Below are positions 39,124 through 54,991 of a DNA stretch of 64,000 nt, piece by piece. Location of the stretch: the NCBI GenBank assembly GCA_017858735.1, contig JAFMBH010000003.1, forward strand, positions 58,712-122,711, written 5' to 3'. The notes below the pieces were generated by a model. The model searched no databases and was not told the origin of the DNA. It saw only the letters and a list, made by a program, of their open reading frames with translations. The DNA comes from Bacteroidota bacterium. Its GTDB lineage: Bacteria; Bacteroidota; Bacteroidia; Chitinophagales; Saprospiraceae. Position 1 is the first letter of the stretch, and the number at the start of each line of letters is the position of its first letter. Made by a program: the position numbers and the translations under genes.

Positions 39124-39630
39124 TTATTTACGTCTGAATTCCCAAGGTGCCACAGGATATGGATCTCTCCAAAGTCCTATGCTCATTGATTTTGCAGAAG
39201 CCTGTGCTTTTTTCAATACCGCACTTTTTGAATATTTTTCGTATTGCCAGGCCATGCCATTTTTCACCATTTCCAGATTGACATTCGTACCATTTCGCAG
39301 ATAAATAAAGCCCAGGGTACGACCGTACCTGTCTGTACCCATTTTTTCCAGCTTAACTTCTTTTCCAAAAATAAGGTTGGAAAGGAAAGTACGGGAAACA
39401 GTTCCAAAGGCTTGCTTCCTTTCAGGCGCATCGATTTCAGATAAACGGACCGTTATTTCTGTCTTAGCTGCCGTTAATAAAACAACGGTATCTCCGTCTT
39501 TAACACCGATAACTCGCAAAAATTCATTACTTTGTGAAAAGAACCAACTTTGGGTTGAAAAGGCAAAAAATAAGATAAGTAAAACAAATAAGAACTTCGT
39601 TTTTGAATTAATTAATCTAAATTTCATCAT
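39124..39630 (-). CDS. Exported thermonuclease (SNase-like) protein
   Basis: Staphylococcal-nuclease fold enzyme expected to cut DNA/RNA outside the cytoplasm. KDGDTVVLL, the catalytic-arginine block VRLSEIDAPERKQ (Arg and Glu) and TDRYGRTLGFIYL (second Arg) are intact, ending with GLWRDPYPVAPWEFRR as in many family members. I use the start MMKFRLINSK (39630) because it gives a proper signal peptide (FLFVLLILFFAFSTQS); the track's ATG 23 codons upstream would overlap the divergent PorP-like gene. About 168 residues. Confidence 0.87.
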   Translation of the reverse strand: MMKFRLINSKTKFLFVLLILFFAFSTQSWFFSQSNEFLRVIGVKDGDTVVLLTAAKTEITVRLSEIDAPERKQAFGTVSRTFLSNLIFGKEVKLEKMGTDRYGRTLGFIYLRNGTNVNLEMVKNGMAWQYEKYSKSAVLKKAQASAKSMSIGLWRDPYPVAPWEFRRK

Positions 39631-39646
39631 TTTTGATTTATAATTT

Positions 39647-40831
39647 ATGAATATGCAAATAATAAATAAGTGGACAAAATTAAGGGTATTTTTTATCACC
39701 TGTGTATTTTTGTTCTTCGTTTTAAATGTTATTTCTCAGGATAGACTTTATTCAAATTTTTTGGGAAATGAGGCTGCCTTCAATCCTTCCCTTTCAGGCT
39801 TTAGAGGAGCTTTTTCTATTTCAGGCCGATTTGTTTCTCAATGGCAATCTCCACAGCTAAATGCTTATAGAACTGGTTTGTTCAAAATGGAAGAAAGTCT
39901 CCCCTGTTCCATTTTTGACTATGATTTACATGCAGAATACAATGAAGAGGGTTCAGGTATTTATAAAACCATGCGTTTGGGCGGAAATATTGCGGGAACT
40001 GCTCCATTTGAAACCGGAAAAAGTACCGTTCATAACATAAGATTTGGTATAGGTCTCGCCTGGCAGTTTAATGCTGTAAACTTTAATCAATTGGTTTTTT
40101 CGGACCAGCTTGACCCCAAATATGGTGCATTTGATGCTTTTGGAAACCTAAACCAAAGCTCATTTATCGCCCCATTAAACAATAGAACTAAATGGTTTTT
40201 TACCCCTGCAGTAGGGTTCTGCCATCGTATTTTATTTAATAGTGAAAATAAAAAATCATCCACTGTTTTATGGGGATTAGCCATGCATCATTTAATTGGG
40301 CTGAGTAATGATAAAAACTGGGGCCAGGCAGAGTCCATTCTTCAGTTGGAAACCACTCTGCCCTATCGGTTTCATGGATTTGTCCAATTTGAATTTATCC
40401 CATATTATCATTTGGGTCAATTTCTTAGTGTAAAACCACACGTGTCGTTCGAAATGCAGAGTAATCTTCACTATTGGAATGTAGGCTCTCATTTTTCGTT
40501 AAACCGACATTTTTCTATTGGAACTTTCGTACAACAAATTTATAATTTTGAACAAAATAATGATACCCAGTGGATTTCCCTTCAACTTGGATTTGGTCAC
40601 AACGTACTTAAAGACAAAAAAATAGAACTGGGATTCACCTATAATATACCCCTCACTGGTCTCAGAAATAATATTGGTCCCTTTCTTGAAGCTAATCTGG
40701 CTTTTCACTTCAGCAAAAGTCCCGGTTGTGGTATCCTGGGCAAAGACAATGCCATGGCTTATCCCGGTGTTCAATGTCCCAGCTCATCATTTAGTCGGGA
40801 ACGACGAAAATTATATGAAAATATATGGTAA
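39647..40831 (+). CDS. PorP/SprF-family T9SS outer-membrane protein
   Basis: 394-residue predicted beta-barrel. A signal peptide ends VISQ, then the family opening DRLYSNFLGNEAAFNPSLSGF (NPSLSG-like) and repeated amphipathic strands such as RLGGNIAGTAP and HNIRFGIGLAWQFNAVNFNQ. PorP/SprF proteins are T9SS outer-membrane parts; paralogues next to giant type B cargo genes, as here, are thought to help export or anchor that cargo (SprF for SprB in Flavobacterium). Its stop overlaps the start of the 1627-residue gene, so a dedicated partnership is likely. Confidence 0.88.
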   Translation: MNMQIINKWTKLRVFFITCVFLFFVLNVISQDRLYSNFLGNEAAFNPSLSGFRGAFSISGRFVSQWQSPQLNAYRTGLFKMEESLPCSIFDYDLHAEYNEEGSGIYKTMRLGGNIAGTAPFETGKSTVHNIRFGIGLAWQFNAVNFNQLVFSDQLDPKYGAFDAFGNLNQSSFIAPLNNRTKWFFTPAVGFCHRILFNSENKKSSTVLWGLAMHHLIGLSNDKNWGQAESILQLETTLPYRFHGFVQFEFIPYYHLGQFLSVKPHVSFEMQSNLHYWNVGSHFSLNRHFSIGTFVQQIYNFEQNNDTQWISLQLGFGHNVLKDKKIELGFTYNIPLTGLRNNIGPFLEANLAFHFSKSPGCGILGKDNAMAYPGVQCPSSSFSRERRKLYENIW

Positions 40832-43800
40832 ATATGAAATTAGTAAGATACTTTAAATATATTTTTATATATATTTTATTATATTTCAATATATTAAGTG
40901 TAAATGCGCAAACTAATCTCTGTAATGACAATGATTGTGGAGATGTTTTTGCTACCTATAGTCCGATAGGTTCCAATGTTTTTTGTGAAGGGGCAACGGT
41001 CATTCTACAAAATAGAAGTTCCACTAAAGATTTTGAAGTTTTCTATATTGATTGGGGAGATGGTAAAAAAGATACGGTGCGAAATTATGACGATATAAAA
41101 CACGTTTACACTTATTCTTCACCATTTAAACGTTGCGAATCAAATGCTAAATTCAACCAAATAATCAGTTATATTGGGGAGAAAAAATGTGGCACAAAGA
41201 AGAGTTGCAATACTGCAACCACCGTTGTTAGTGTCAAATTAAATCCGGAGGCAAACATTGATATTCAAAGCGAATATTGTCTGGGTAAAACGATAAATTT
41301 CAAAGAGAACGGTTGCCATGGAGAAACCTATCTATGGGAATTTGGCGACGGAAAAACGAGCACAGATAGGAATCCTACCCATTCTTACGCAAGTACAGGA
41401 TTTTACAACGTAAAACTTACCTCTTTTAATGAATGTGGCTCTAATACGACCATAAAACCAATCAGGGTAGTTGATTTTCCCAAGGCAGGATTTACTATAA
41501 ATCCGGCGAAAGGGCTTTGTGGCCCGGGAGGCATTCAACTGAAAATGAATGATGATTTATGGGGAATAGGAAGTTGGAAAATCGATCCACAAGACACTAT
41601 GTCCTGGAAATTTTTAGATACAACATACACCTTGTCTTCCAAAGATTTAAAAATAAACGCCAAAAAAACAGGAGATTTCACCATCACTCATACCTCACAA
41701 AATGTTTGTGGTATGGACAAAAGTACAATGAAATACAAGGTTTTTAATCCGCCAACCTATCAAATAGACACTCCGAATATTTTTTGTGAAAAAGCAGTGA
41801 TTACCGAAAAAGATTTAAAATTTACCTCCGGTGGTGACATAAAATCAATTTCATGGACCTTTGAGGGTGCAGATAGAAGCGTAGATTTTTCTGAACGTTT
41901 CAGTGCGCTGACATTTACCAGATCAGGTACGGTTACCATGAAAATCGAGTCGGAAGTCTGTAGCACACTGACCCATCAGATACCTATTACCGTCATTAAA
42001 AACCCAAGCATAAACCTGAATGAAAATCCAAATCAATTTTGTGAAGGTGGTGACACATTGGTGCTCAAAGCGAGTCCTTTAGGAGGACGTTGGAAAGGAC
42101 AGGGCATCATAGATCCAATAAAAGGAACCTTTTACCCTAAGGATTTGCCTGAAAATACCTCCATTACGTTGACATACCAAATAGGAAATGGAGACTGCAG
42201 TGCTTCTGAATCATTTAAAATAGCCATTATTGCTACGCCTGCCATTTCGTTAGGTGTAGATTCATTTTGCTTAGGCGATGCTCCAAAATTATTACTTGGT
42301 AAACCGGTCGGAGGAGTATATTCCGGCATTGGAGTAGATCCCGTAAGTGGGATTTTTTCTCCTGTATTGAGCGGACCAGGCCGATTTAATGTTTCCTATA
42401 CTTTAGATAAATTGAATGGCTGTCGCATTACAGCAAGCGATATCATTCTGGTAGATAAACCTCCAGTTCTGACCTTAGCAGATAGTCTCTTATTTTGCAA
42501 CAGCAACAAAGTTTCAAACTTATTGGTAGAAACAGATTTGAAAGTTGATTCAACGAAGGGAAAATTCACTTGGGGAGGAATAGGAGTCAATTCATCGGAA
42601 GGTTCCTTAAATACTACCTTGCTTCCTCAAAATGAAATATCTACATTATATGTACAATATGACCGCTACGGATGCTCTGTCAAGGATAGTGTTTTTGTCA
42701 AATCCACCAACACGCCCCTTCTTTCTCTATCCAAAGACACTACGCTTTGCATTGATGCCATGTCATTCCAACTTACCTCAAATATTCCAGGAGGCATCTG
42801 GACAGGAAAAGGAGTAGATACTCAAAAAGGATTGGTAGATTTATCTATTCCAAATTCAGGGAAACACCTTTACCAATATATTTTCAGACCTGAAACTTCT
42901 TGTTTTCAAGAGGGAAACGTTACCATTGATTTACTCAATCCAGGATTAACTATTTCAGCTGGAGATCGTTTGGAAATTTGTCCCGATGCCACCCCATTTT
43001 TACTTTCAGGAGGATTTCCCCTGGGAGGCACCTGGACTGGCCCAGGATTATCAGGAGCCGACGATGCTTTAGTCAACACATCTCTTTTATTACCTGGTGA
43101 AAATAAATTTATTTACTGCCTGAGTGATCCAAATTTTAAAGCTTGTAAGGCTTGTGCGACTAAAATCATTTATTTAAATGCTGCGCCTATCCCAGATTTT
43201 ATATTACCCAATAATATTTGCTTAAATACGGCATTTAGCCCGCAAAATAAAAGTGTGGGTGGAAATGAATTTCGTTGGACTACAGAAGAAAATCAAAACA
43301 GCGATAAGAAAAATCCAAGCTTCGTTTTCCAAGAACCCGGGCTTAAAAACCTCAAGTTAGAGGTGATAAACGAAAAAAACTGTCGAACCAGTAAGGAATT
43401 AAGCTTCAATGTTTCCGCCCCAGCTAATATAAGCATTACTCTTTCTGACGATGAATCATGCGCTCCTTACACCGTTTCAATAAATAAAATATCCTCGGGA
43501 GATAATTTATCTATTACATGGATTAATGGAAAAGATACCATCTTAAGTGCCGATCCTCCAACGTGGAAACTTGAAGGTACGAGAAAAGATACGACCTATA
43601 AAATTGAGGCCATTGCTAAAAACAGCTGCGCTGAAATTAAAGATGTCAAGGAAATTGTAATACACCCCCTTCCGAAAGCCATTTTTGGCACCTTTCCATT
43701 GGAAGGTTGCTCCCCTTTGTCCGTTAAGATGGCCAATGTTAGTGAAGGTGGACCATTACAATATATTTGGGATTATGGCAATGGAAATCTAAGCTTTGAT

Positions 43801-45708
43801 TCATTAGCAGAAGAACAATTATACTATCTTGATGGAACAGATTACAAAGAATACAAAATCACCTTAAGGACAGAAAATGCTTGCGGAAAAGATAGTTTGG
43901 AAAAAACAATTTCAGTTTACAAAAGAGATACAGAAGCCTTTTTTGAAATTGAATCATTGAAGGGATGTCCCCCTTTTCAACTTACTGCCAAAAGTTTTTC
44001 TTCTTCTGGCGCTGAGCTCAACTGGCAATTGAGCTCCCCTGACGGAAAAATTATTTCAGGAAATCAGCCTATTTTTAATCCAATATTAACAGCCTCAGGT
44101 GAATATAATTTACTATTAGGTGCTACTAAATGTGGCACAGACACCTTACAAACGAAGATAAACGTTTGGCCTGCTCCAATAATTACACCTATAAATAAAG
44201 ACAATTACTGTCTTAATGAGACAATACCCAGCTCTTTTTCGATAAATGATTTGAGCAATGTATCCAATATTTTGTGGCAGCACGGTGATGGAACTACTTC
44301 GAATAATATTAATGCGCAGCATACCTATAAGTTAGCAGGCACCTATATAAGCACATTGACAGCTACCTCAGCCATCAATGCTTGTAAAACAACGCAAGAC
44401 AAAATCATCACTATTCATCCCCTACCCGATGTAACTTACAATTCAGATAAAATGGCTGGATGTCCACCCTTATCGGTTCAATTTAAACATCAAGTAGAAA
44501 TAGGAACAACTTATTCCTGGCATTTTGAAGATTTACCCCCCATCAATGAAATAAATCCAATCTATATTTTCAATAAAAGTGGTCAGGCGAAAATCATATT
44601 GACAGCTACCAATAGATTTGGCTGTAAGGAAGAAGGACAGCCCATAGAAATTTCTGTTTATCCCAAGCCAACGGCCAATTTCACCCTTTCAAAGGATGAA
44701 GTATGTGAATTTGCAATGTTAGAGGGACTAAAAAATAAATCACTCGGTTCTATCCAATTTGAGTGGAAATGGCAAGACGACATTTACACAGACGTTGAAC
44801 CTAATCTCTTTGCTGACAAAAACAAAGGCGATTATGATCTTTACTTAATCGCAAAAAATAATTTTGGATGTAAAGACTCACTAGTTAAAAAGATTAAAGT
44901 AAATACACAATCTTTTGCAGGTTTTGATATTTTATCGCCCACTATTTGCTTAGGAAAAACGCCTTTTATTACCAATAAAAGCAATAACGCCAATCAGTTT
45001 CAATGGTTCTTAAATACGACATTGGTAAGCGAGCAAGCAAATCCATCAATTAACATTTCTCGTATTGGTGATTTTTCCATTACGTTGGTCACAGCTCAGA
45101 ATGATAAATGCAAGGATACATTAACATTGATTAAAAACATTACCGTCCTGCCTTCACCTGAAGCCAATTTTGATTGCCGCACTAATTTTATTGAACGCAC
45201 TATTGGAGAAGTACAGTTTACTAATAAATCTAATTTTTCCAACCGATACTTTTGGAATTTTGGTGATGGCATTACCTCAGATGCTTTGTCTCCCATACAC
45301 GAATACAGTATAAACAGAAAGATTGAAGTAAAATTGATTGCTTATGCAGACTATTTAAATGGGTTTTATTGTTCAGACACCATCATAAAATCTATTGAAC
45401 CAGAATGGATTACCACCTTTCATGCACCTAACGCTCTGGTACCCTCAGCAAATAACCCAGAAATTCAGGTATTCAAACCAGTAGGCATAGGCCTTGCCGC
45501 TTATGAAATACAGATCTACAGTCCCTGGGGAGAAAGGGTGTGGTATTCCAACAAATTAAACCTGGATGCACCCGAAGAAAGTTGGAACGGAAGTAAAAAT
45601 AATATAGGACCAATTCTTCCTCAGGGAGCTTATATTTGGCAGGCTGTGGTAACCTTTGTTAATGGCAAAAAGGAAATTTTTACAGGTTCTGTGAGTATTT
45701 TAAGATAA
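40825..45708 (+). CDS. Giant PKD/Ig-like surface protein with type B T9SS sorting domain
   Basis: 1627 residues. Order: signal peptide (to SVNAQ); Cys-rich head (CNDNDCGDV, WGDGKKDTV); a PKD domain (YLWEFGDGKTSTDRNPTHSY, about 170); five repeats of about 80 residues keyed by GGxWxGxG-like turns (LGGRWKGQGI 418, VGGVYSGIGV 494, FTWGGIGV 578, PGGIWTGKGV 654, LGGTWTGPGL 732); several PKD-like domains (about 850-1510, with GCSPLSV, GCPPFQL, GCPPLSV and FGDGITSD); then a gliding-motility-type C-terminal domain (FHAPNALVPS to FTGSVSILR, about 1527-1627). An adhesin or filament exported by the T9SS is the likely role. The start may be three codons on (MKLVRYF). It overlaps the PorP-like gene and heads a long co-directional cluster. 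Confidence 0.88.
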   Translation: MVNMKLVRYFKYIFIYILLYFNILSVNAQTNLCNDNDCGDVFATYSPIGSNVFCEGATVILQNRSSTKDFEVFYIDWGDGKKDTVRNYDDIKHVYTYSSPFKRCESNAKFNQIISYIGEKKCGTKKSCNTATTVVSVKLNPEANIDIQSEYCLGKTINFKENGCHGETYLWEFGDGKTSTDRNPTHSYASTGFYNVKLTSFNECGSNTTIKPIRVVDFPKAGFTINPAKGLCGPGGIQLKMNDDLWGIGSWKIDPQDTMSWKFLDTTYTLSSKDLKINAKKTGDFTITHTSQNVCGMDKSTMKYKVFNPPTYQIDTPNIFCEKAVITEKDLKFTSGGDIKSISWTFEGADRSVDFSERFSALTFTRSGTVTMKIESEVCSTLTHQIPITVIKNPSINLNENPNQFCEGGDTLVLKASPLGGRWKGQGIIDPIKGTFYPKDLPENTSITLTYQIGNGDCSASESFKIAIIATPAISLGVDSFCLGDAPKLLLGKPVGGVYSGIGVDPVSGIFSPVLSGPGRFNVSYTLDKLNGCRITASDIILVDKPPVLTLADSLLFCNSNKVSNLLVETDLKVDSTKGKFTWGGIGVNSSEGSLNTTLLPQNEISTLYVQYDRYGCSVKDSVFVKSTNTPLLSLSKDTTLCIDAMSFQLTSNIPGGIWTGKGVDTQKGLVDLSIPNSGKHLYQYIFRPETSCFQEGNVTIDLLNPGLTISAGDRLEICPDATPFLLSGGFPLGGTWTGPGLSGADDALVNTSLLLPGENKFIYCLSDPNFKACKACATKIIYLNAAPIPDFILPNNICLNTAFSPQNKSVGGNEFRWTTEENQNSDKKNPSFVFQEPGLKNLKLEVINEKNCRTSKELSFNVSAPANISITLSDDESCAPYTVSINKISSGDNLSITWINGKDTILSADPPTWKLEGTRKDTTYKIEAIAKNSCAEIKDVKEIVIHPLPKAIFGTFPLEGCSPLSVKMANVSEGGPLQYIWDYGNGNLSFDSLAEEQLYYLDGTDYKEYKITLRTENACGKDSLEKTISVYKRDTEAFFEIESLKGCPPFQLTAKSFSSSGAELNWQLSSPDGKIISGNQPIFNPILTASGEYNLLLGATKCGTDTLQTKINVWPAPIITPINKDNYCLNETIPSSFSINDLSNVSNILWQHGDGTTSNNINAQHTYKLAGTYISTLTATSAINACKTTQDKIITIHPLPDVTYNSDKMAGCPPLSVQFKHQVEIGTTYSWHFEDLPPINEINPIYIFNKSGQAKIILTATNRFGCKEEGQPIEISVYPKPTANFTLSKDEVCEFAMLEGLKNKSLGSIQFEWKWQDDIYTDVEPNLFADKNKGDYDLYLIAKNNFGCKDSLVKKIKVNTQSFAGFDILSPTICLGKTPFITNKSNNANQFQWFLNTTLVSEQANPSINISRIGDFSITLVTAQNDKCKDTLTLIKNITVLPSPEANFDCRTNFIERTIGEVQFTNKSNFSNRYFWNFGDGITSDALSPIHEYSINRKIEVKLIAYADYLNGFYCSDTIIKSIEPEWITTFHAPNALVPSANNPEIQVFKPVGIGLAAYEIQIYSPWGERVWYSNKLNLDAPEESWNGSKNNIGPILPQGAYIWQAVVTFVNGKKEIFTGSVSILR

Positions 45709-45765
45709 TTTTTCACTGATGCAGAAAAAAAAATGAAAAATGAGTCTTTTGTAACGGGAAAATCG

Positions 45766-45773
45766 TATTTTTG
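45766..45773 (+). promoter_or_regulatory. -7-like element before the PKD lipoprotein gene
   Basis: TATTTTTG fits TAnnTTTG and lies in the 110-base gap after the giant gene, 45 bases before the next ATG. TTTTG upstream is only 14 bases away, too close for a normal -33, so the element is weakly supported. It could let the accessory genes be expressed apart from the giant cargo. Confidence 0.35.
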
Positions 45774-45818
45774 AATTTAAAATAAACAGTTTAAATTACT
45801 GATTATTAATATATTAAA

Positions 45819-46670
45819 ATGAGAAACCCCCATAAACCTCTTTTATTGGCTATTATTCTGGTATTGGGTATAACAATATTCAGTGCTTGTGAAACCAGAG
45901 AAAAATCAATATTACCTAAAACTCCTCAACAAAATGAACTGGATATATCGGTTCCTTCCTTTGCAATGCTTGAAATTGTAGGTTCAGAGACTGAGCCTAT
46001 ACAAGTAAAAAATGAAGTGGAGCTATCAAAATCAGAAGTCATTGAAGAAAATATAATACCCATTCAAAATAAAAATGAATTAGTATTTAAAGGCGGTGAA
46101 GCTCCCGTTTCCCCTGTTAAAACGGGCAACGGATTTTCGATTTTAGTATCATCATCCCGTTTGGAAGTAGGCGAACCAATAACGTTTTATGTCAACACTA
46201 CCGCTCCATTAATCTGGCAATTAGGAGATGGAACCACTAACACAGGCAAAAAAATATCTCACATTTTTCAAAAACCAGGACAATACAAAATAGAAGCCTA
46301 CAACGCTGATAAAACGCAGCGTAATCGCATTGAAATATTAGTTCTTTGTTCCTCTGAATATGTATTAAATAAAATAAATGTGATTCAAAAAGCAGCCTAT
46401 TCAAATGATGAAAAATGGTTACTAAAGAGCATTGATGAATTTAAAAAACTGTTTAAATCTAACGCTATGCTCATCGATTTGAACCAGGCTAGTCAGGGAA
46501 AAAGCAACAGAAAATTTGCTGATGTCGATTCGTTCATAGATTATTTTTTAATTAGAACAGAACAAAACAAAGAAAAAGGTTTTGTAGACTTATCGGTAAT
46601 AAACGGCGTAAGACAGTTAGAAACTGCTACAGAAAGTTCATTATTATCAAAGATTACTTTATATGAATAG
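45819..46670 (+). CDS. PKD-domain lipoprotein of the surface-protein cluster
   Basis: 283 residues. The lipoprotein signal ends IFSAC (Cys24). A linker with many charged residues (about 30-105) is followed by a PKD-like domain (PLIWQLGDGTTNTGKKISHIFQKPG, about 130-170) and a helical C-terminal region of about 100 residues (LLKSIDEFKKLFKS, RKFADVDSFIDYFL) with no recognised family. Likely attached to the outer or inner membrane facing the periplasm. It overlaps the next gene by 8 bases. The PKD fold links it by type to the giant neighbour; a scaffold role is inference. Confidence 0.7.
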   Translation: MRNPHKPLLLAIILVLGITIFSACETREKSILPKTPQQNELDISVPSFAMLEIVGSETEPIQVKNEVELSKSEVIEENIIPIQNKNELVFKGGEAPVSPVKTGNGFSILVSSSRLEVGEPITFYVNTTAPLIWQLGDGTTNTGKKISHIFQKPGQYKIEAYNADKTQRNRIEILVLCSSEYVLNKINVIQKAAYSNDEKWLLKSIDEFKKLFKSNAMLIDLNQASQGKSNRKFADVDSFIDYFLIRTEQNKEKGFVDLSVINGVRQLETATESSLLSKITLYE

Positions 46671-48030
46671 TACCTTAATAAGACTATTCCTTGCATGGAT
46701 ATTCATAGTTCAGATTGGCTCTTTACCATTAAATGCCCAGGATGGCATTTATAAAAATGGGAATAAATTCACTTTTGAAGCACCAAAAGCAAACAATGTT
46801 CCAGTTGGTCATACGATAGAATCCTGGAGTATAAAAAGGCAGGAAATTGAAATATCTTTAAATGAAAAGAAGCTAAACTTCGGGAATTTAGCTTACGGAA
46901 TGGCTCAGGAATTACATCAGTGTTTTAGAATTATCAGTGATGATGATAAAATTTTACGTCTAAAAGAAGCAGCTAAAAGGCATGCTTTAAGCCTTTTTAA
47001 AGATGCTCGGGGAGAAATATCAGGAAGTACGCCCTATTATGGTATGACTTTAGGCGAAAGCGGGCAGATTAACGAAAATTATTTGAATTTAGGTGCATAT
47101 ATGGATATGCTAATAGCGCAACCTAATGAGCAAACAGGAATAAATATTTGCTGGGCATTACCCAGCGAAGAATCTGAAAAAACAGTTGTTTTTAGTTCAG
47201 CCGGTTTTTCAAGTCCTATTTACCTTCCAAATGGACAAAAACACCCGGACAACCTTTTGTACGAAGTGTACAGGGGGTCTTTACCTGTTCGGGAACGTAT
47301 AGGATTTCTGCAAAATGGGTTACCTATCGAAAAGACAATTTGCAAAGAAATGTTTTTTGAGCTACGCTGTTTTTTAGATCCTGAACCAAAATTAAGTCTA
47401 AATGCTCCAGATAAATTCTACTGGCAAGTTGCCTTCATAAGAATAAGCAAGGTTTCTGACGAAAAGCTATGTGAAAATTTACCAGAAGTAGCATGTACTT
47501 TGCCCGATGTATCGATTTTAACTTCTGATATTGCCCTGATTGATTCTGCTGAAAATAATATAACATTAAAATCTGCTACTCCTCCCAAAGCATATAAACC
47601 CCTTTCGCCGTTTACCTATTTAGTACCTGGCTTCGGAATGAGGCATTTTCAATCTATGAAAGAAAATAAACCCAAAATTCCCATTTGGCCTATTGTAACA
47701 GGCGTTTGGCTGGGAAGTGGTTTTTTTGCTGCAGTAAGTAAAAAGCAATCATCTATTGATTATGTCATTCATAAAACAACTTTTTCAATCACTGAAAATG
47801 AAACAGCATATCTAAATGCAAATAAATGGAACCATCGAAGTTTGATAAGTGCTGCTGCGAGCTTAGGCATCTGGATAATAAATGATGCTGGTCTTTTTTT
47901 AAAAGATAAAAAAGCGAGGCGAACCAGTCGTGAGTTATTTATGAATACCGTGCCATCAATAGGTTACCAAAAAAATAGTCTTTATCCATTTGTAAATCAA
48001 CCCGTGGCAGGTTACAGAATAAAATTCTAA
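46663..48030 (+). CDS. Unknown exported protein with two C-terminal membrane segments
   Basis: 455 residues, no family named with confidence. Signal peptide to LPLNAQ; a long soluble region (about 25-320) with several Cys residues; then SPFTYLVPGFGMRHFQ and two hydrophobic segments (PIWPIVTGVWLGSGFFAAVS, about 338-358; SLISAAASLGIWIINDAGLFL, about 393-413). The tail pattern PG-G... plus two spans resembles the DUF5683-like membrane tails seen in Bacteroidota proteins. Topology suggests a periplasmic domain anchored in the inner membrane by its C-terminus. It overlaps the PKD lipoprotein gene and is 3 bases from the next, so all three are made together. Confidence 0.65.
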   Translation: MNSTLIRLFLAWIFIVQIGSLPLNAQDGIYKNGNKFTFEAPKANNVPVGHTIESWSIKRQEIEISLNEKKLNFGNLAYGMAQELHQCFRIISDDDKILRLKEAAKRHALSLFKDARGEISGSTPYYGMTLGESGQINENYLNLGAYMDMLIAQPNEQTGINICWALPSEESEKTVVFSSAGFSSPIYLPNGQKHPDNLLYEVYRGSLPVRERIGFLQNGLPIEKTICKEMFFELRCFLDPEPKLSLNAPDKFYWQVAFIRISKVSDEKLCENLPEVACTLPDVSILTSDIALIDSAENNITLKSATPPKAYKPLSPFTYLVPGFGMRHFQSMKENKPKIPIWPIVTGVWLGSGFFAAVSKKQSSIDYVIHKTTFSITENETAYLNANKWNHRSLISAAASLGIWIINDAGLFLKDKKARRTSRELFMNTVPSIGYQKNSLYPFVNQPVAGYRIKF

Positions 48031-48033
48031 TTC

Positions 48034-49176
48034 ATGAAAAAGGTACCTGTAATAATACTGCTGATTGGAATATGGTTTCCGTCTTGTGTTAAGTGGGATT
48101 TAGAAAAATTTCCCCTGAATACATTTTCTCAAGATTACCCAGTTTCCCCATCTATTGACACACAATACGTTCACCAGTTCATACAAATTACGGACGGAAC
48201 CTTTAGAATCATTGGTACAAATACCAAGCAGGAAATAAATCTCTTACAAGTCAGTGCCGACGGAAAATCTGCCAATCTTGCCATCTCGCCAGGAATAGGA
48301 AAAGCTATAGATATACAAAATGGTATAGGCCAAAATGCTTTCGGCACCTTAGTACAAAGAAAAGAAGGCATTACCTTTTTACAATATTCTGACGGCCTTT
48401 CACCTTCATTACAATCCATAGTTAGTGGAGATTTATCTAAAAAATTTCCACTTATTGAAAGCTCTGAGGGATTTCATTGCACCACAACAAAAGATGGAAA
48501 CTGGATTATAGCCGGAACCATGAAGCAATCAACACAGGATAGCCGATTATTCATGAGTTCTTTAAAGGCTGGAGGTGCTTCAGATTGGATACATACTTAT
48601 GAAACTAATCTTCAACCCTATGGAGTTTATTTAATGGACAATGGTACCTATTATTTATTGACAGGCAGACCCAACGGAAATGCCCTTTTACTTAGATTTA
48701 CAAATAAAGGCACGCTAACCCTATCAAAACCTTTACAAAATATTTATCTTTCGAAAGAGGGAGGAATCTCGGGTAACGGAAAATCTATTTATATAACCGC
48801 AGCACAAAAAACCTTGAAAGGATATAAAACCTCAGTAACCTCTTATTCCTTAAACGGTGACAGAGAATGGGAATTCACAAAAGAATCTAATACTGGTATA
48901 AGCAAAGGCATAAAAATTCTATGCGAAAAGGAAGGGCAAATCATTCTATTGGAAAGAGAAGGAAATATTTCAAATAATCAAAATTATAATCACCGGTTAA
49001 TCAGGCTAAATGCAGCGGGAGAGCTTTTATGGGAGAGTTTATTTCTACCTGAAAAGCCAAACGAAAAAATAGTAGATCTAATTATTTCAAATGATTTTGG
49101 TTATGCCCTGTTAGGAACAGATCCAACAGGCTATAAAATTATAAAAACCGATGTATTTGGTAAAATAAAACCCTGA
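48034..49176 (+). CDS. Predicted propeller-like lipoprotein, function unknown
   Basis: 380 residues. The lipoprotein signal ends WFPSC (Cys18). The body is made of repeated beta-hairpin units with Asp-Gly turns (TKDGNWIIAGTM, DNGTYYLLTGRP, SNDFGYALLGTD, NAAGELLWES), a pattern like bacterial beta-propellers that carry 'DGGYIITG'-type blades; perhaps six or seven blades. No enzyme motif seen. It is 3 bases after the previous gene. A protein-binding platform of the cluster is a reasonable guess. Confidence 0.65.
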   Translation: MKKVPVIILLIGIWFPSCVKWDLEKFPLNTFSQDYPVSPSIDTQYVHQFIQITDGTFRIIGTNTKQEINLLQVSADGKSANLAISPGIGKAIDIQNGIGQNAFGTLVQRKEGITFLQYSDGLSPSLQSIVSGDLSKKFPLIESSEGFHCTTTKDGNWIIAGTMKQSTQDSRLFMSSLKAGGASDWIHTYETNLQPYGVYLMDNGTYYLLTGRPNGNALLLRFTNKGTLTLSKPLQNIYLSKEGGISGNGKSIYITAAQKTLKGYKTSVTSYSLNGDREWEFTKESNTGISKGIKILCEKEGQIILLEREGNISNNQNYNHRLIRLNAAGELLWESLFLPEKPNEKIVDLIISNDFGYALLGTDPTGYKIIKTDVFGKIKP

Positions 49177-49203
49177 TTATTAGCGTAAAAGATTAATTTA
49201 ATA

Positions 49204-49211
49204 TATATTTG
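49204..49211 (+). promoter_or_regulatory. -7 promoter element before the ankyrin membrane protein gene
   Basis: TATATTTG matches TAnnTTTG and lies 58 bases before the ATG, inside the 93-base gap after the propeller-like gene. The -33 region has only a weak TTAG. It would give the last gene of the cluster its own start point. Confidence 0.4.
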
Positions 49212-49269
49212 TGTTTAATCTTTCTAAATTACTCCCAGTCAATTTAATTAATGTAGCTCATTCTTATGT

Positions 49270-51573
49270 ATGGCTGACGGGAATTCTTTGTTAAATGGCG
49301 ATGTATTAATTATAACCTTTAGTAACAGTACTAAAAGGATAAAATTGTACTATTATCATCATGATATAGACTTCAAAGAAGTAAAAAATCTTCCCGTTGT
49401 AAAAAATATAGCCCAATTACAGCCTATCATTTTTCAGTTTATCGAAGATTTTTTAAGGTCGAGAATTGAAATTGCCTTTGAACAATCAGATGCCATTTTT
49501 AATGCAGAAAAATTATCAGGCAATATTCTTTTTATAGTAGAATCAAACATTACTCCATCCTTTAAAACCGAAATCGAAGAATTCTATCATTGGATGTTTC
49601 ATTCACTTAAGGAAAATGAGTTCCACAAAATTTTTGTGGAAAAATCCTTCAAGAACCTGGAAACAAATAAATTTGAAAAGGTTACAGATACCCTTTTCGC
49701 GGACTATCATTTATCTATTAGTATATTAGACGCAGATAATCCACAGTCTTTCAAAACAGATAACCTGTTCAAATCAGGAAAAATTGATTTTAAAAAATCA
49801 GTCTTTTCACAACTTGTTCTAAACGAAGTTCTTCAAAAATCTGGCATAGTTACTAAAGTAACTAAAGAAAACGTTTTAAAAGAAGCATTTAAAATTTCCG
49901 AAAAATACTTTGCTTCTCAAGACAAAATATGGAGTGGAGAATTAATGGTAGCTAATAAACCCATTACTTTTCAATTAACTCCTCAAAAGTTAGAAACAAA
50001 TATAGTAGAAAAGGAAAAAACCATTAAAGAAAATAAATCTCAACTTCAATTAGTCATTCCTTATAATGATATCAATCATTTATTTTCTCTATTGAATAAC
50101 AGAAAATTAAGCGTTGCCCTTTTTAAGGAAGCCTTAGACGAAAGTGTAGGGATAGATTCATCTGAAAAGCTCATATCTTTTTTAAATCTGGGCGAAAAGA
50201 TAAGTCCCAAAGAAATAGTAAACGCAAAAAACAGTAAAACATCCTATCATAAAGGAATGATTAACACTGATTTTTTAGAGGATAATGATGATGAGATTTC
50301 TATTTTGGACAATTTAATAGTAGGAAAACCAAAAAAAGATTCTGTTATCAAAAAAGAAAAACCCAAAAGGAAATGGGTTATGTTTGCCGGGCTTTTTATT
50401 CTTATTTTAACCGTAGTTTTTGCTATTCCCGCTATTGTTTCACCTCCTGTTCAATGTAACGGCTCTCCCCTACTTTTAGAAATGGTTAAAGGAAACAGAC
50501 AAGAAGTTAAAAAAATGGTTCTTGCCTGTGCCGATTATCGCAACCCTGAACAACAAGTTATAACCATTGAAAAACACGATTATACAAGTCCAATTATACT
50601 TTCTATTGTAAATGGAGATCTTGATTTACTTAAATTTTTAAATGAGAAGGGTGAAATACCTCTGGACGTTCAGGAAAAAAACACAGAAAATCCATCGCTG
50701 AAAGGTTGGTCAGCTCCCTGGACCGCTGTAGCTTTCAATCAACCCAAAGTTTTGGATTATCTTACCGAACAAGGTGTAAACATGGATACTCGCCAGGATA
50801 AAAATGGTGAAACACCTCTTATCCTTGCCATTACCATGAATAACAAATACCTGGTAAATAAACTACTCCTTGCTGGGGCAGATCCTGATTTTTCTGACTC
50901 AAAGGGAATTACTCCTTTACTTTACACGCTTGCATTAGATTTACCAGATTTGGCAAAAATACTTCTTTCTAATGGTGCTACCATTCCTCCCTTTTTAACA
51001 AAAGGCGATTTTAATTCCCGTATTGAATCGGAGGAAATGAGAAGCGTCGTGAAAAAATATAGTTCAAATCTATTTTCCTTTTTAGATGCATTTCAAGCTA
51101 ATAGCCCCTTCAATAAAAATCTTAGTGGTTCATTCATCAATGAAAACGAAAATCTTGTTTTCAATAGTTCATTGTTCAGAATGTACCCTTTTAATTTATC
51201 TCCCTCGGCTAATTATCAATTTTCTTGTTTTCTTACCATACCATTGTCAGAAGAGAGTGGTGAATTCGGCATCATTTTTTCCTCCCAAATGAATAATAAA
51301 TGGACATTAATCATCAATTCTTCTGGTGAATGGCAGCTTAAAAACAATAAAGAAAACATTAAATCTGGCTTCATTGAATTGAAAAGGAATATAAAGAAAG
51401 TAAGATTAAAAATTAAGAAAGATAAAAACCAGTTTGAGTTTAGGTTAAACGATAGTACACTATTAACAACCACCTTACCCAAACCAATGGGAAATTATTT
51501 TGGGTTTCAGGTTGAAAACAATTTCCAGGGAAGCCAATGGATTATAGAAAAATATAAATTAAAAGAGTTCTAG
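49270..51573 (+). CDS. Single-span membrane protein with predicted periplasmic ankyrin repeats
   Basis: 767 residues. The first 365 are soluble with no recognised domain and no signal peptide. One membrane span (WVMFAGLFILILTVVFAIPAIV, about 368-390) is preceded by KKEKPKRK, so by the positive-inside rule the N-part is cytoplasmic and the C-part periplasmic. The C-part has about five ankyrin repeats (398-580; TSPIILSIVNGDLDLLKFLNEKG, NGETPLILAITMNNKYLVNKLLLAGADPD) and a C-terminal beta-sandwich (about 620-767; GEFGIIFSSQMNNKWTLII, FGFQVENN) like concanavalin/LamG-type folds. It may transmit state across the inner membrane for the surface-protein cluster. Function unknown. Confidence 0.75.
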   Translation: MADGNSLLNGDVLIITFSNSTKRIKLYYYHHDIDFKEVKNLPVVKNIAQLQPIIFQFIEDFLRSRIEIAFEQSDAIFNAEKLSGNILFIVESNITPSFKTEIEEFYHWMFHSLKENEFHKIFVEKSFKNLETNKFEKVTDTLFADYHLSISILDADNPQSFKTDNLFKSGKIDFKKSVFSQLVLNEVLQKSGIVTKVTKENVLKEAFKISEKYFASQDKIWSGELMVANKPITFQLTPQKLETNIVEKEKTIKENKSQLQLVIPYNDINHLFSLLNNRKLSVALFKEALDESVGIDSSEKLISFLNLGEKISPKEIVNAKNSKTSYHKGMINTDFLEDNDDEISILDNLIVGKPKKDSVIKKEKPKRKWVMFAGLFILILTVVFAIPAIVSPPVQCNGSPLLLEMVKGNRQEVKKMVLACADYRNPEQQVITIEKHDYTSPIILSIVNGDLDLLKFLNEKGEIPLDVQEKNTENPSLKGWSAPWTAVAFNQPKVLDYLTEQGVNMDTRQDKNGETPLILAITMNNKYLVNKLLLAGADPDFSDSKGITPLLYTLALDLPDLAKILLSNGATIPPFLTKGDFNSRIESEEMRSVVKKYSSNLFSFLDAFQANSPFNKNLSGSFINENENLVFNSSLFRMYPFNLSPSANYQFSCFLTIPLSEESGEFGIIFSSQMNNKWTLIINSSGEWQLKNNKENIKSGFIELKRNIKKVRLKIKKDKNQFEFRLNDSTLLTTTLPKPMGNYFGFQVENNFQGSQWIIEKYKLKEF

Positions 51574-51580
51574 GCATTCA

Positions 51581-54500
51581 TTATATCTTAATTACCCGTT
51601 GCGTTTTCCCATAGCCTTCAATAAAATACATACCACTTGGAAGAGAACTTACATCGAGCATCATCTCCCCATCAAAATCCGAAAATTCAACGGTCTTCAG
51701 TACTTTACCATAAACATCCAGGACACGAATTAGTGGGTATTTAGCTTGCTGCTTATCTATATTTTTATTTCTTAAATAAAGATAATCACTGCATGGATTG
51801 GGATAAACTTCTAATAAACTTAATTTTTGTAAAGATTCCTTAACACTGTTCACACCTCCAAAAGACACTTTAACGGTGTCTATTGCAGAACATCCCGAAG
51901 CCACATTAAATACCTCCAGGGTATAAATACCTGGGTCTTCCACCGCATAAGTAGATTGGGTTGAACCATCAAACCAACGATAAGAAAATCCTGGTACAGG
52001 AGGTTTTCCAATGATTAGTTTCTGTCCTGATAAAATAAAAGTATCTACAGCAGGGTCGAACGGAAATTTATCAGAAACAGAATATTTCCAATCTAACGAA
52101 TCTAAACAACCAGAATTATCACTATAGCGATAAGAAATGGCAAATTCACCTGACGTTAAAGGTTTAAACCGATACAGCCCAATTTCTTTATTAACCGATT
52201 CCACCACAGGTCCGTTTTTATTTATAAATAATCCTCCTGTTGGTTTTACTTTAAATTCGATCCATTTATCACTTTTGCAATAAGAAGGAATAAGGTTTTC
52301 GAATAATAGTGTGGGTGATTGTTTTAATTCTTTCAAAAAGATAGAATCCCTGCCTTTACATCCACCACTGTCGGTATAATCATAATAAATCCAACGATTC
52401 GAAATACCTGTACCTATGGGTAACTGATATTTACCATTTAATAAATCAATGACGCCTAAACCAGAAAACTTTCCACCTGTGGGATTTGCCTTTAGTTCAA
52501 TCTTATCTGTGGCAACACATAAATTACTTTTTAAATCCAGTATGGAAACTGGTGGAGAAGAATAAACATTTACCTCTGTCCTGGATTCACCTTTACATTG
52601 ATTTCCAGAGGTTGTGAGCAAGGTTAAAGGATAAAAACCATCTATTTTGGGAGGGAGATACTTATAATCTATAAAATCACCTCTCACTACAGTATCTAAT
52701 AAAATATTTCCCGATTGAAATAATTGAATTTTAACGGGATTACCTGAAAGATTTGACCATTTCATACTTACAGATGATTCATTGCCTAAACAAACAGGGG
52801 TTGCTGTAAATCGAGAAATACTAGGTTGTTCAATAACATCGAGCACAAGAGAATCAATAGATAATCCACAGGAACTTTCCCCTTCTACTTTTACGGTAAA
52901 CTTACCCGTGATATTATATTTGACTTTACCTGGATTCAATCCTACAAAAGAAGACGGAATACCACCAGGAAAAGACCATTTTAGTGATTCATAGGAACCT
53001 ACTGTGGTAAGAGAGGGAATAAACTCAATATTAGAACAAAAGGAGTTTAACTTAGCCAGAGAAAGACTAGGTTTCTGAATAATTTTTAATTCAGAAATGA
53101 GTTCCGCCGCACAATTTGCCCCTTTTGAAACAACTACTTTTAACGGATAATTCCCAACGTTGGCGAATGGTCTAAAAGACCAGATCAATGTATTTCCGGT
53201 AATAATGGTATCAAAAAGAGGGGAACCCGACAAAGAAATAGAGATTTTCAATGCCTCGTTATCTCTATTGGACAATCTTAATTTTAGGTCACTTTTTTCA
53301 CCAATACACGCGGTGGAAACAGATAAAGACTCCATAATGGGTTTAGAAAAAACCCTTACGGTAGTTGTATCAAAAACAGTTCCACAGGCATTAGTAGCTT
53401 GCAGGGTAATACCAAACACGCCAGGACTGGAAAATCTTATTTTTCCAGGGTTCAAACTAATGAAATTTGTAACAGAACCCCCATTAACTATCCATTTTAC
53501 CTCTGTAAAAACACCGTTTACTGCATAAACAGGTGTGAACTCTTCATTTTCACAAAGAGGTGAAACAGGAGCCAAAGCTACTGTCATAGCGTCAGTAATG
53601 GAAAGAGAAACAGAATCACGCAGGGTGCAATAAGGATTTGAAGCATTAAAATAAACGATTCCTTTTGTTTTATTTAGGAATAGAGAAGGGTCAATCAATC
53701 CCGTCGAAGAAATACCAAAACCTGACCAGGTTCCCGCGGGAGAAGCTGTTAATTGAATCGGAGCATCATTGGAGCAAAATGCCACTGCTTTTTTTGATAA
53801 TTTCAATGTGTCCTTAGGAAATACTTGTATTCTAATAGTATGTTGAAAGGAACCACATTGGCCATTAGTTTGAAGGTCTATCGTCCCATTTTTTTTAAAC
53901 AACGCTGGTTGGAAGGTACTTCCCTGGGCTGTAAAAGGACTTTCATTATTAACTTTCCAAATAAGAGAATTTATTCTTAGTTTATCATAAGTAAAAAGCA
54001 ACGATTCGGGAGAAACGAAACCCTCCTGACATAAATTTACCTCTGAATCAGTTTTAAAAAAAGGCGTTGATTTAAGAATAAAGGGCATAGAAATAGAATC
54101 GGACCCACAACCATTAGAAGTAAACAGTTTTATATTAATAGCACCCAAGCGTTTAAACCTTATCCATGTTGAATCGCCGGTAGGAAAGGAAAGGACAGAC
54201 TCCCAGACGGAGGTATCTCCTGTGATTTTCCAAACACCATCAGAGGAGTTTGTTTGTTTATTTTTCAACCTCACCGAAATTGGATAACAAAACTGCTGTG
54301 TATCAATAACAATATCAGCTTTTGGTTTTTCCAGAATGGTAACAATCTGTTTTACTGAATCAGCACCACAACTATTTCTTGCGGTTAGTTCTACTTCATA
54401 TTGACCGGGTAAATCATAATCCAGATTAATATCTCTAATATTGGTGATACGAAAAGTAGAATATCGCCAGGTATAAATAGCAGCATTTGAGAAACAAGTT

Positions 54501-54991
54501 TTATTTTGAAAATTAATTCTTGCTCCAACACATGCCGTAGTCGCAGAGGGTATAAATGCAGCTTTAGGTTTTAGGGCAATCTTTATTGGAAAAGATTGAA
54601 CTTTTTGGCTACAAGAAAATCCTTCGTTACATTGTTTGAATGCAGTAATACATACAGTTAAACTTAAAATTGTGTCATTTTGACAGGACGCTTTCAAAGA
54701 TTCAGGTAAATCATATTTATGAAAGAAATCATTTAATTGGTACACAGTATCTTGCTTACCATCTCCCCATCGAATAACGAGTCCGGTATATGTTTGAATC
54801 GCTGTATTATTTTTGAATCGCAAAATAGAACCTTCACAAACCAAGGAATCTATGGGAGAAACGTCATAATTTACTGCCCCACAATCATTCCTTGAACAAG
54901 GAACTTCACAGGTAGATTGAGCAGATAGGAAAGACACATTGATAGCACAGCTATATACTAACCAAAAAAAACACAAATGAATGAATTTCAT
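51581..54991 (-). CDS. Large Ig/PKD-like surface protein with type A T9SS sorting domain; paralogue of the 1627-residue protein
   Basis: 1136 residues. The signal peptide ends FLSAQ. The head (CSRNDCGAV, SPIDSLVCEG, IRWGDGKQDTV) clearly matches the head of the giant protein at 40825 (NDCG, SPI, CEG, WGDGKKDTV). Then come Ig/PKD-like modules including GGxWxGxG-type turns (PAGTWSGFGI, PTGGKFSGLGV). The C-terminus is a type A sorting domain (LLEVYPNPCSDYLYL to SSLPSGMYFIEGYG, about 1058-1136), unlike the type B tail of its paralogue. Exported by the T9SS, probably cell-surface attached. It is convergent with the ankyrin gene, 7 bases apart, and lacks its own PorP partner. Confidence 0.87.
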   Translation of the reverse strand: MKFIHLCFFWLVYSCAINVSFLSAQSTCEVPCSRNDCGAVNYDVSPIDSLVCEGSILRFKNNTAIQTYTGLVIRWGDGKQDTVYQLNDFFHKYDLPESLKASCQNDTILSLTVCITAFKQCNEGFSCSQKVQSFPIKIALKPKAAFIPSATTACVGARINFQNKTCFSNAAIYTWRYSTFRITNIRDINLDYDLPGQYEVELTARNSCGADSVKQIVTILEKPKADIVIDTQQFCYPISVRLKNKQTNSSDGVWKITGDTSVWESVLSFPTGDSTWIRFKRLGAINIKLFTSNGCGSDSISMPFILKSTPFFKTDSEVNLCQEGFVSPESLLFTYDKLRINSLIWKVNNESPFTAQGSTFQPALFKKNGTIDLQTNGQCGSFQHTIRIQVFPKDTLKLSKKAVAFCSNDAPIQLTASPAGTWSGFGISSTGLIDPSLFLNKTKGIVYFNASNPYCTLRDSVSLSITDAMTVALAPVSPLCENEEFTPVYAVNGVFTEVKWIVNGGSVTNFISLNPGKIRFSSPGVFGITLQATNACGTVFDTTTVRVFSKPIMESLSVSTACIGEKSDLKLRLSNRDNEALKISISLSGSPLFDTIITGNTLIWSFRPFANVGNYPLKVVVSKGANCAAELISELKIIQKPSLSLAKLNSFCSNIEFIPSLTTVGSYESLKWSFPGGIPSSFVGLNPGKVKYNITGKFTVKVEGESSCGLSIDSLVLDVIEQPSISRFTATPVCLGNESSVSMKWSNLSGNPVKIQLFQSGNILLDTVVRGDFIDYKYLPPKIDGFYPLTLLTTSGNQCKGESRTEVNVYSSPPVSILDLKSNLCVATDKIELKANPTGGKFSGLGVIDLLNGKYQLPIGTGISNRWIYYDYTDSGGCKGRDSIFLKELKQSPTLLFENLIPSYCKSDKWIEFKVKPTGGLFINKNGPVVESVNKEIGLYRFKPLTSGEFAISYRYSDNSGCLDSLDWKYSVSDKFPFDPAVDTFILSGQKLIIGKPPVPGFSYRWFDGSTQSTYAVEDPGIYTLEVFNVASGCSAIDTVKVSFGGVNSVKESLQKLSLLEVYPNPCSDYLYLRNKNIDKQQAKYPLIRVLDVYGKVLKTVEFSDFDGEMMLDVSSLPSGMYFIEGYGKTQRVIKI

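Follow-up and report, generated by a model that had tools for sequence, protein, structure and literature searches.

A Saprospiraceae locus in which two surface systems probably lie side by side: a SprF/SprB-type pair and an envelope cassette

The window analyzed here, a stretch of 64,000 nucleotides at the end of a contig in a 4.2 Mb Saprospiraceae genome, contains seven adjacent genes that were originally proposed to form a single surface apparatus. We consider it probable that they comprise two surface systems placed side by side: a SprF/SprB-type pair (unit 1) and an envelope cassette (unit 2) proposed to be the arm of an intracellular NTPase or kinase switch. At least two units, rather than one six-gene apparatus, are indicated because the genes called here exp and prop never accompany PorP or cargo B in the four other genera that have them, PorP and cargo B occur elsewhere without exp and prop, and the ankyrin gene is confined to the window's genus. 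Within that genus, the conserved neighborhood and the common N-terminus of the two cargos still speak for a single apparatus, whereas the occurrence of the units apart from each other elsewhere speaks against it. The "unknown surface machine" is replaced by two testable objects.

Layout of the locus and its transcription units

Each of the seven predicted genes corresponds to an open reading frame. The plus strand encodes a PorP/SprF-type outer-membrane carrier (39647..40831; Pfam PF11751, E 1e-12); cargo B, an adhesin-like, PKD-rich, putative type B T9SS cargo of 1627 aa (40825..45708; PKD, E 8e-54); a PKD lipoprotein with a C-terminal domain, the first gene of the cassette (45819..46670; PF18911, E 1e-7); the exported protein exp with two late spans (46663..48030); the propeller-like lipoprotein prop (48034..49176), which like exp has no family match; and an ankyrin membrane protein (49270..51573; Ank_2, E 2e-12). 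Convergent to them, on the minus strand, lies cargo A, a type A T9SS cargo of 1136 aa (51581..54991; Por_Secre_tail, E 2e-11).

The tight co-directional spacing ascribed to most of the six plus-strand genes holds only inside two blocks. PorP and cargo B overlap by 7 bp, the PKD lipoprotein and exp genes by 8 bp, and prop follows exp after 3 bp, but the blocks are set apart by intergenic stretches of 110 bp (45709-45818) and 93 bp (49177-49269). Both gaps hold a promoter-like element of the form TAnnTTTG on the plus strand, TATTTTTG upstream of the PKD lipoprotein gene (45766..45773) and TATATTTG upstream of the ankyrin gene (49204..49211), each kept in 6/6 genomes of the genus; the background frequency of this pattern in the window is 0.68 per kb per strand. 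Because these conserved elements, which are consensus matches rather than mapped starts, occur in both gaps, the sequence suggests three plus-strand units: PorP-cargo B, PKD-exp-prop, and the ankyrin gene.

The genus is represented by seven genomes, including the window's own. The order of the whole block is kept in the five others that carry it, two of them interrupted by contig ends; exp and prop are absent from the seventh, which is 90% complete. dN/dS, calculated for PorP, cargo A, prop, and the PKD and ankyrin proteins, ranges from 0.05 to 0.13; these five genes are under purifying selection, and all seven are conserved reading frames. This synteny is uninformative on function, since the flanking genes are equally syntenic in these close relatives. 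A staphylococcal-nuclease-like gene lies on the minus strand at 39124-39699; read from its predicted GTG start, it shares 53 bp with the 5' end of PorP, and an internal ATG start is likelier.

The PorP carrier and cargo B

The PorP/SprF domain is present in the carrier (PF11751, 48.7 bits against a cut-off of 22.3), whose score for the NCBIfam subfamily, 58.1, lies below the cut-off of 90.55. The sorting domain of cargo B is borderline type B, with a CHU_C score of 26.7 bits just under the cut-off of 27; the C-terminal ends are alike across the cargo B family. Its N-terminal 450 aa yield one clearly best, near full-length match per genome in more than 20 genomes of the family, at 25-38% identity, and most of these genomes also give weaker, partial PKD matches.

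Sixteen cargo B loci from other genera were sampled, and their predicted genes were compared with the window proteins. An orthologous PorP gene lies immediately 5' of the orthologous cargo B in 12 of the 16, and a PorP-like gene lies 3' of the cargo in two more. No accessory gene and no cargo A was found in any of these 16 loci, where the genes downstream of the pair vary and are unrelated. The check proposed at the outset was whether the accessory set keeps company with PorP and the giant cargo; at least 12 other genomes have PorP and cargo B without accessory genes. Across the genomes compared, PorP and cargo B form a stand-alone pair independent of the accessory genes.

This kind of pair, which occurs across the family, is already known from SprF-SprB of Flavobacterium johnsoniae, where a PorP/SprF-like gene likewise adjoins the gene of a PKD-rich surface protein of very great length, whose C-terminus is CHU_C-like, as that of cargo B may be (PMC12618676, PMC9143113, PMC12635249). 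In the literature open to search, no SprB-type gliding adhesin is described for the family. The window's carrier gene differs in lying upstream of its cargo, not downstream. A further likeness is a cysteine pair in the periplasmic tail of the carrier. In F. johnsoniae, the CxC motif of the SprF tail forms a disulfide with Cys343 of GldK that is required for sustained adhesin movement (PMC12635249). The tail that follows the barrel of the window's PorP lacks CxC; its cysteines, C361 and C377, are 16 residues apart and are invariant in all 13 tails compared (12/12 orthologs and the window's own). Nearly all of these tails also have an additional conserved R[RK]KxYExIW-like end, which reads RRKLYENIW in the window. 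The same genome encodes a full GldK (560.8 bits) with a matching cysteine: Cys291, aligned to C356 of PorK, is presumably the equivalent of F. johnsoniae Cys343, judging by the spacing of the two GldK cysteines.

Given these domains and the known rule for SprF-SprB-type pairs, PorP would carry cargo B from the type IX translocon and hold it on the surface. Through C361 and C377 the carrier may be disulfide-bonded to a periplasmic protein, GldK being one candidate, and cargo B would then be a moving gliding adhesin; we do not claim that PorP is a gliding SprF. Unit 1 predicts a carrier whose two cysteines are spaced and which may share the disulfide chemistry of gliding SprF.

The envelope cassette and its counterparts in other genera

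The PKD lipoprotein and prop have lipoprotein-type starts, and exp has a signal peptide followed by hydrophobic spans near residues 339-359 and 394-413. Pfam searches gave no match for exp at E 1, for its G198 homolog at E 0.1, or for its G271 homolog at E 0.01. With its Pro-Gly-rich start and two hydrophobic spans late in the protein, exp presumably resembles the DUF5683-type membrane domain proteins of Bacteroidota; the DUF5683 family of Pfam matches neither exp nor its homologs, and exp differs from this type in having an N-terminal domain of its own. In the predicted structure (pLDDT 58 overall, about 70-83 over much of residues 66-265), long antiparallel strands come after helices. Among the top Foldseek matches, none of which is below E 1e-3 (best E 1.3e-3), are mitoribosomal chain d, ARC6/PARC6, TraM/DotI, and ketosteroid-isomerase-like proteins; we take several of them to be NTF2/Tim44-like folds. 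On this model, exp probably carries an NTF2-like periplasmic domain.

A phmmer search with exp found orthologs in the window's genus only, and profile searches were therefore used. The exp profile detected G198 (E 9e-9), and after inclusion of the G198 and G361 proteins, the latter from a locus reached through a SrfC search, it detected G271 (E 3e-22) and G093 (E 6e-15). At E 0.01, 14 of 398 family genomes were matched, six of them from the window's genus; matches in G074, G027, G517, and G540 covered the span domain only and were left out of the cassette count. In all four other genera (G198, G361, G271, and G093, the last across a contig break), exp and prop stand in the same order and are accompanied by a type A cargo, and PorP and cargo B never lie alongside. 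The accessory genes, for which scattering had been raised as the counter-case, thus keep partial company: exp and prop travel with a type A cargo, but not with PorP or cargo B.

The unit 2 proteins of these genera are about 13-28% identical to those of the window. Homology is strong for exp (blastp E 1e-29 to G271; hhalign 95.5% to G198/G361) and moderate for prop (blastp E 3e-6 to the G271 counterpart), which can be aligned with its counterparts in G271, G198, and G361 and for which profile-profile comparison was marginal. Counterparts of the PKD protein lie directly 5' of exp in G271, G198, G361, and G093, with weak sequence similarity: the G361 score was reached by 6/500 shuffles and the G271 score by 12/500, the G198 and G093 counterparts did no better than shuffles, and profile-profile comparison gave no link. 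Because this homology is weak, the membership of the PKD protein in the cassette rests on position.

Cargo A has a type A sorting domain (PF18962, 44.3 bits against a cut-off of 27) and PKD repeats. The predicted paralogy of the two cargos applies mainly to their N-terminal ~480 residues (26% identity, E 7e-42); the domain matches, type A in one and borderline type B in the other, indicate different sorting signals. The best genome-wide match of the C-terminal half of cargo A is the exp-linked cargo in G271 (3.5e-31), G361 (1.4e-23), and G198 (1e-20), in each case at least 10 orders of magnitude ahead of the next, and these exp-linked cargos align mainly with the C-terminal part. Cargo A (51581-54991) therefore looks chimeric, its N-terminal ~480 residues resembling the cargo B family and its C-terminal half the exp-linked cargos. 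Within the genus, the common N-terminal half of the cargos appears to be the sole thread joining both units.

The ankyrin protein has one span near residues 366-397, a predicted cytoplasmic part of ~365 aa, ankyrin repeats, and a C-terminal beta-rich part. Phmmer found orthologs in the genus only, and outside it, among 150 family genomes, the ankyrin stretch alone was matched, so the protein appears to be genus-restricted. Its structural model is poor (pLDDT 46), and the 50 best structural matches listed are mostly to ankyrin repeats. The strand order of the N-terminal part recalls actin-like folds; we do not claim such a fold. The four accessory genes do not hold together as the one set that was originally proposed: the ankyrin gene is found in one genus, the PKD counterpart is weak, and it is the exp-prop pair that recurs.

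Intracellular neighbors and competing readings

The genes preceding the cassette differ among genera. Both G198 and G361 have, in this order, SrfB (E 3e-93), SrfC (E 1e-107), subtilisin, membrane protein, GTPase, several envelope or membrane proteins, PKD-type protein, exp, propeller lipoprotein, and type A cargo, so that exp-prop-cargo A forms the downstream operon end of a SrfB-SrfC/DO-GTPase system (PF07520, PF10139, PF19993). The Pfam DO-GTPase2 match occurs in G198 only, the G361 counterpart being a homolog (E 6e-13). In G271 a kinase/FHA/MotA-ExbB/trypsin cluster is followed by a PKD-like lipoprotein, exp, prop, and a convergent type A cargo, a layout equal to the window's minus the ankyrin gene. 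In G093 the set is split between contigs: one ends with the PKD-type protein and exp, and another begins with prop and the cargo. In contrast to the SrfB-SrfC/DO-GTPase systems, the window's genus has no such intracellular genes beside unit 2, and SrfC (PF10139) was found in 0/7 of its genomes; this family-wide search serves as its own positive control, finding G091, G198, G350, and G361, whereas PF10139 in close relatives alone gave no match. The codirectional run that precedes the exp set in G271 (L075/L074, G271:C83:143312-157744) comprises FHA/zinc-ribbon, FHA-kinase, TolR-like, MotA/ExbB channel, FHA-trypsin, apparent PP2C, and second kinase genes; in PADLOC, its kinase resembles mad6 and its channel weakly ZorA.

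Because relatives join unit 2 to SrfB-SrfC/double-GTPase genes (GTPase/actin-like) or to kinase, phosphatase, FHA, TolQ-like, and protease genes, we propose a switch-to-surface role. Unit 2 would consist of the PKD lipoprotein, exp with its probable NTF2-like periplasmic domain on two spans, and the propeller lipoprotein, with cargo A released to, or attached at, the surface. Serving as either sensor or output, it would connect the periplasm and the surface with a switch inside the cell, an NTPase or a kinase, and the ankyrin protein would be its candidate intracellular partner in the window's genus. We infer complex formation, the direction of signaling, and the role of the ankyrin protein; the G271 kinase/TolQ genes and the G198/G361 SrfBC genes may be neighbors rather than partners of the exp set. 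If the linkage is true, unit 2 is an exported arm through which the SrfB-SrfC/DO-GTPase and kinase systems of Bacteroidota reach the surface, and this would be relevant to what these systems sense or do. A literature search yielded no description of the cassette. DO-GTPase systems have been described as conflict systems in a paper that does not mention Srf and in which a term search found no exported, propeller, or T9SS-cargo arm (PMC7159879).

Lipoproteins beside exp-type genes have W-x-L (N-L in two cases) shortly after the cysteine; mature prop begins C18-VKWDLE. Among 41 lipoprotein-like proteins in the fetched loci, ten have W-x-L within 12 residues of the cysteine, all in exp-linked clusters; six of these are paralogs or relatives in G084 and G124 and thus not all independent, and the count leaves out the window's and G361's own W-x-L lipoproteins, which escaped the filter. 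Starts of the C-x-K-W-[DNQ]-L-[DE] type were likewise confined to exp-linked members of the 41. The Bacteroidetes lipoprotein export signal, C-X-K-(D/E)2 (PMC5080379), also has Lys at +3 with an acidic residue close behind, but lacks the conserved Trp and Leu, the Trp being inserted here. As a genome-wide DNA pattern, lipobox-W-L was at background level (19 against 16 in the control in the window's own genome), and no further exp-type cassette was therefore found by pattern.

Exp-type sequences also occur in other settings. The span domain is fused to a caspase in G459 and G477, and exp-type genes lie beside STAND and CHAT genes and kelch lipoproteins in G084 and G124, with a type A cargo as well in G084. 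In the fusions (L090:9731-12076 and L091:329-2683), the two-span domain forms the C-terminus of the caspase-domain protein, and a lipoprotein with a WDL start follows. A broader proposal, which we put forward only tentatively, is an undescribed envelope-and-surface arm of exp with its NTF2-like domain and two spans, a W-x-L/N-L-tagged propeller or kelch lipoprotein, a PKD protein, and a type A cargo, mounted on interchangeable intracellular switches (SrfB-SrfC/DO-GTPase; kinase/PP2C/TolQ-like; caspase fusion or STAND/CHAT near related exp-type genes) in Saprospiraceae and elsewhere in their order, and here uncoupled beside a possibly mobile adhesin pair.

Since cargo A resembles a fusion between the cassette's cargo end and an N-terminal half of the cargo B kind, a single machine is still conceivable in the genus, where all seven genes occur together and could form one unit; cooperation of units 1 and 2 there is possible. 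We regard it as unlikely, however, that unit 2 was recruited to the PorP-adhesin pair as one integrated apparatus, regulating or anchoring both cargos through a common N-terminal half that binds the same partner. The neighborhood is conserved in all 6 carrying genomes, and the N-terminal part of cargo A may come from the cargo B family in this lineage, but the flanking genes are just as conserved, the units occur apart elsewhere, and they have separate promoter-like elements. It is more likely that the ordinary part of the locus is the SprF/SprB-type pair, and the new part an envelope cassette tied elsewhere to intracellular NTPase/kinase operons and uncoupled here.

That unit 2 belongs to an antiphage or conflict system whose intracellular part was lost or replaced in the genus seems decidedly doubtful: the caspase fusions, the STAND/CHAT neighbors, and the published view of DO-GTPase systems fit such an origin, but PADLOC has no match for the PKD, exp, and prop proteins of the window, those for the ankyrin protein fall in the repeat stretch, the DUF5683-like span domain occurs in a wide range of settings, and a housekeeping role is possible. 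A chance neighborhood, with exp, prop, and cargo A as ordinary envelope proteins traveling together without functional meaning, would suit the sporadic distribution of exp but is improbable: four other genera show the same order, with a type A cargo that is specifically related, despite such low identity, and cargo A, prop, and the PKD protein are under purifying selection.

Two minor observations concern the fetched loci. Those of G361 (L061/L062), G198 (L050/L051/L054), and G093 (L076) begin with an exported endonuclease/exonuclease/phosphatase-family protein that is 54-75% identical between genera; SrfB-SrfC genes lie alongside in two of these loci, and G093 lacks SrfC. L076:12680-14467 of G093, with no Pfam match at E 0.001, encodes a lipoprotein in which a vWA-like domain is followed by a PKD-like part and the C-terminal domain of the cassette.
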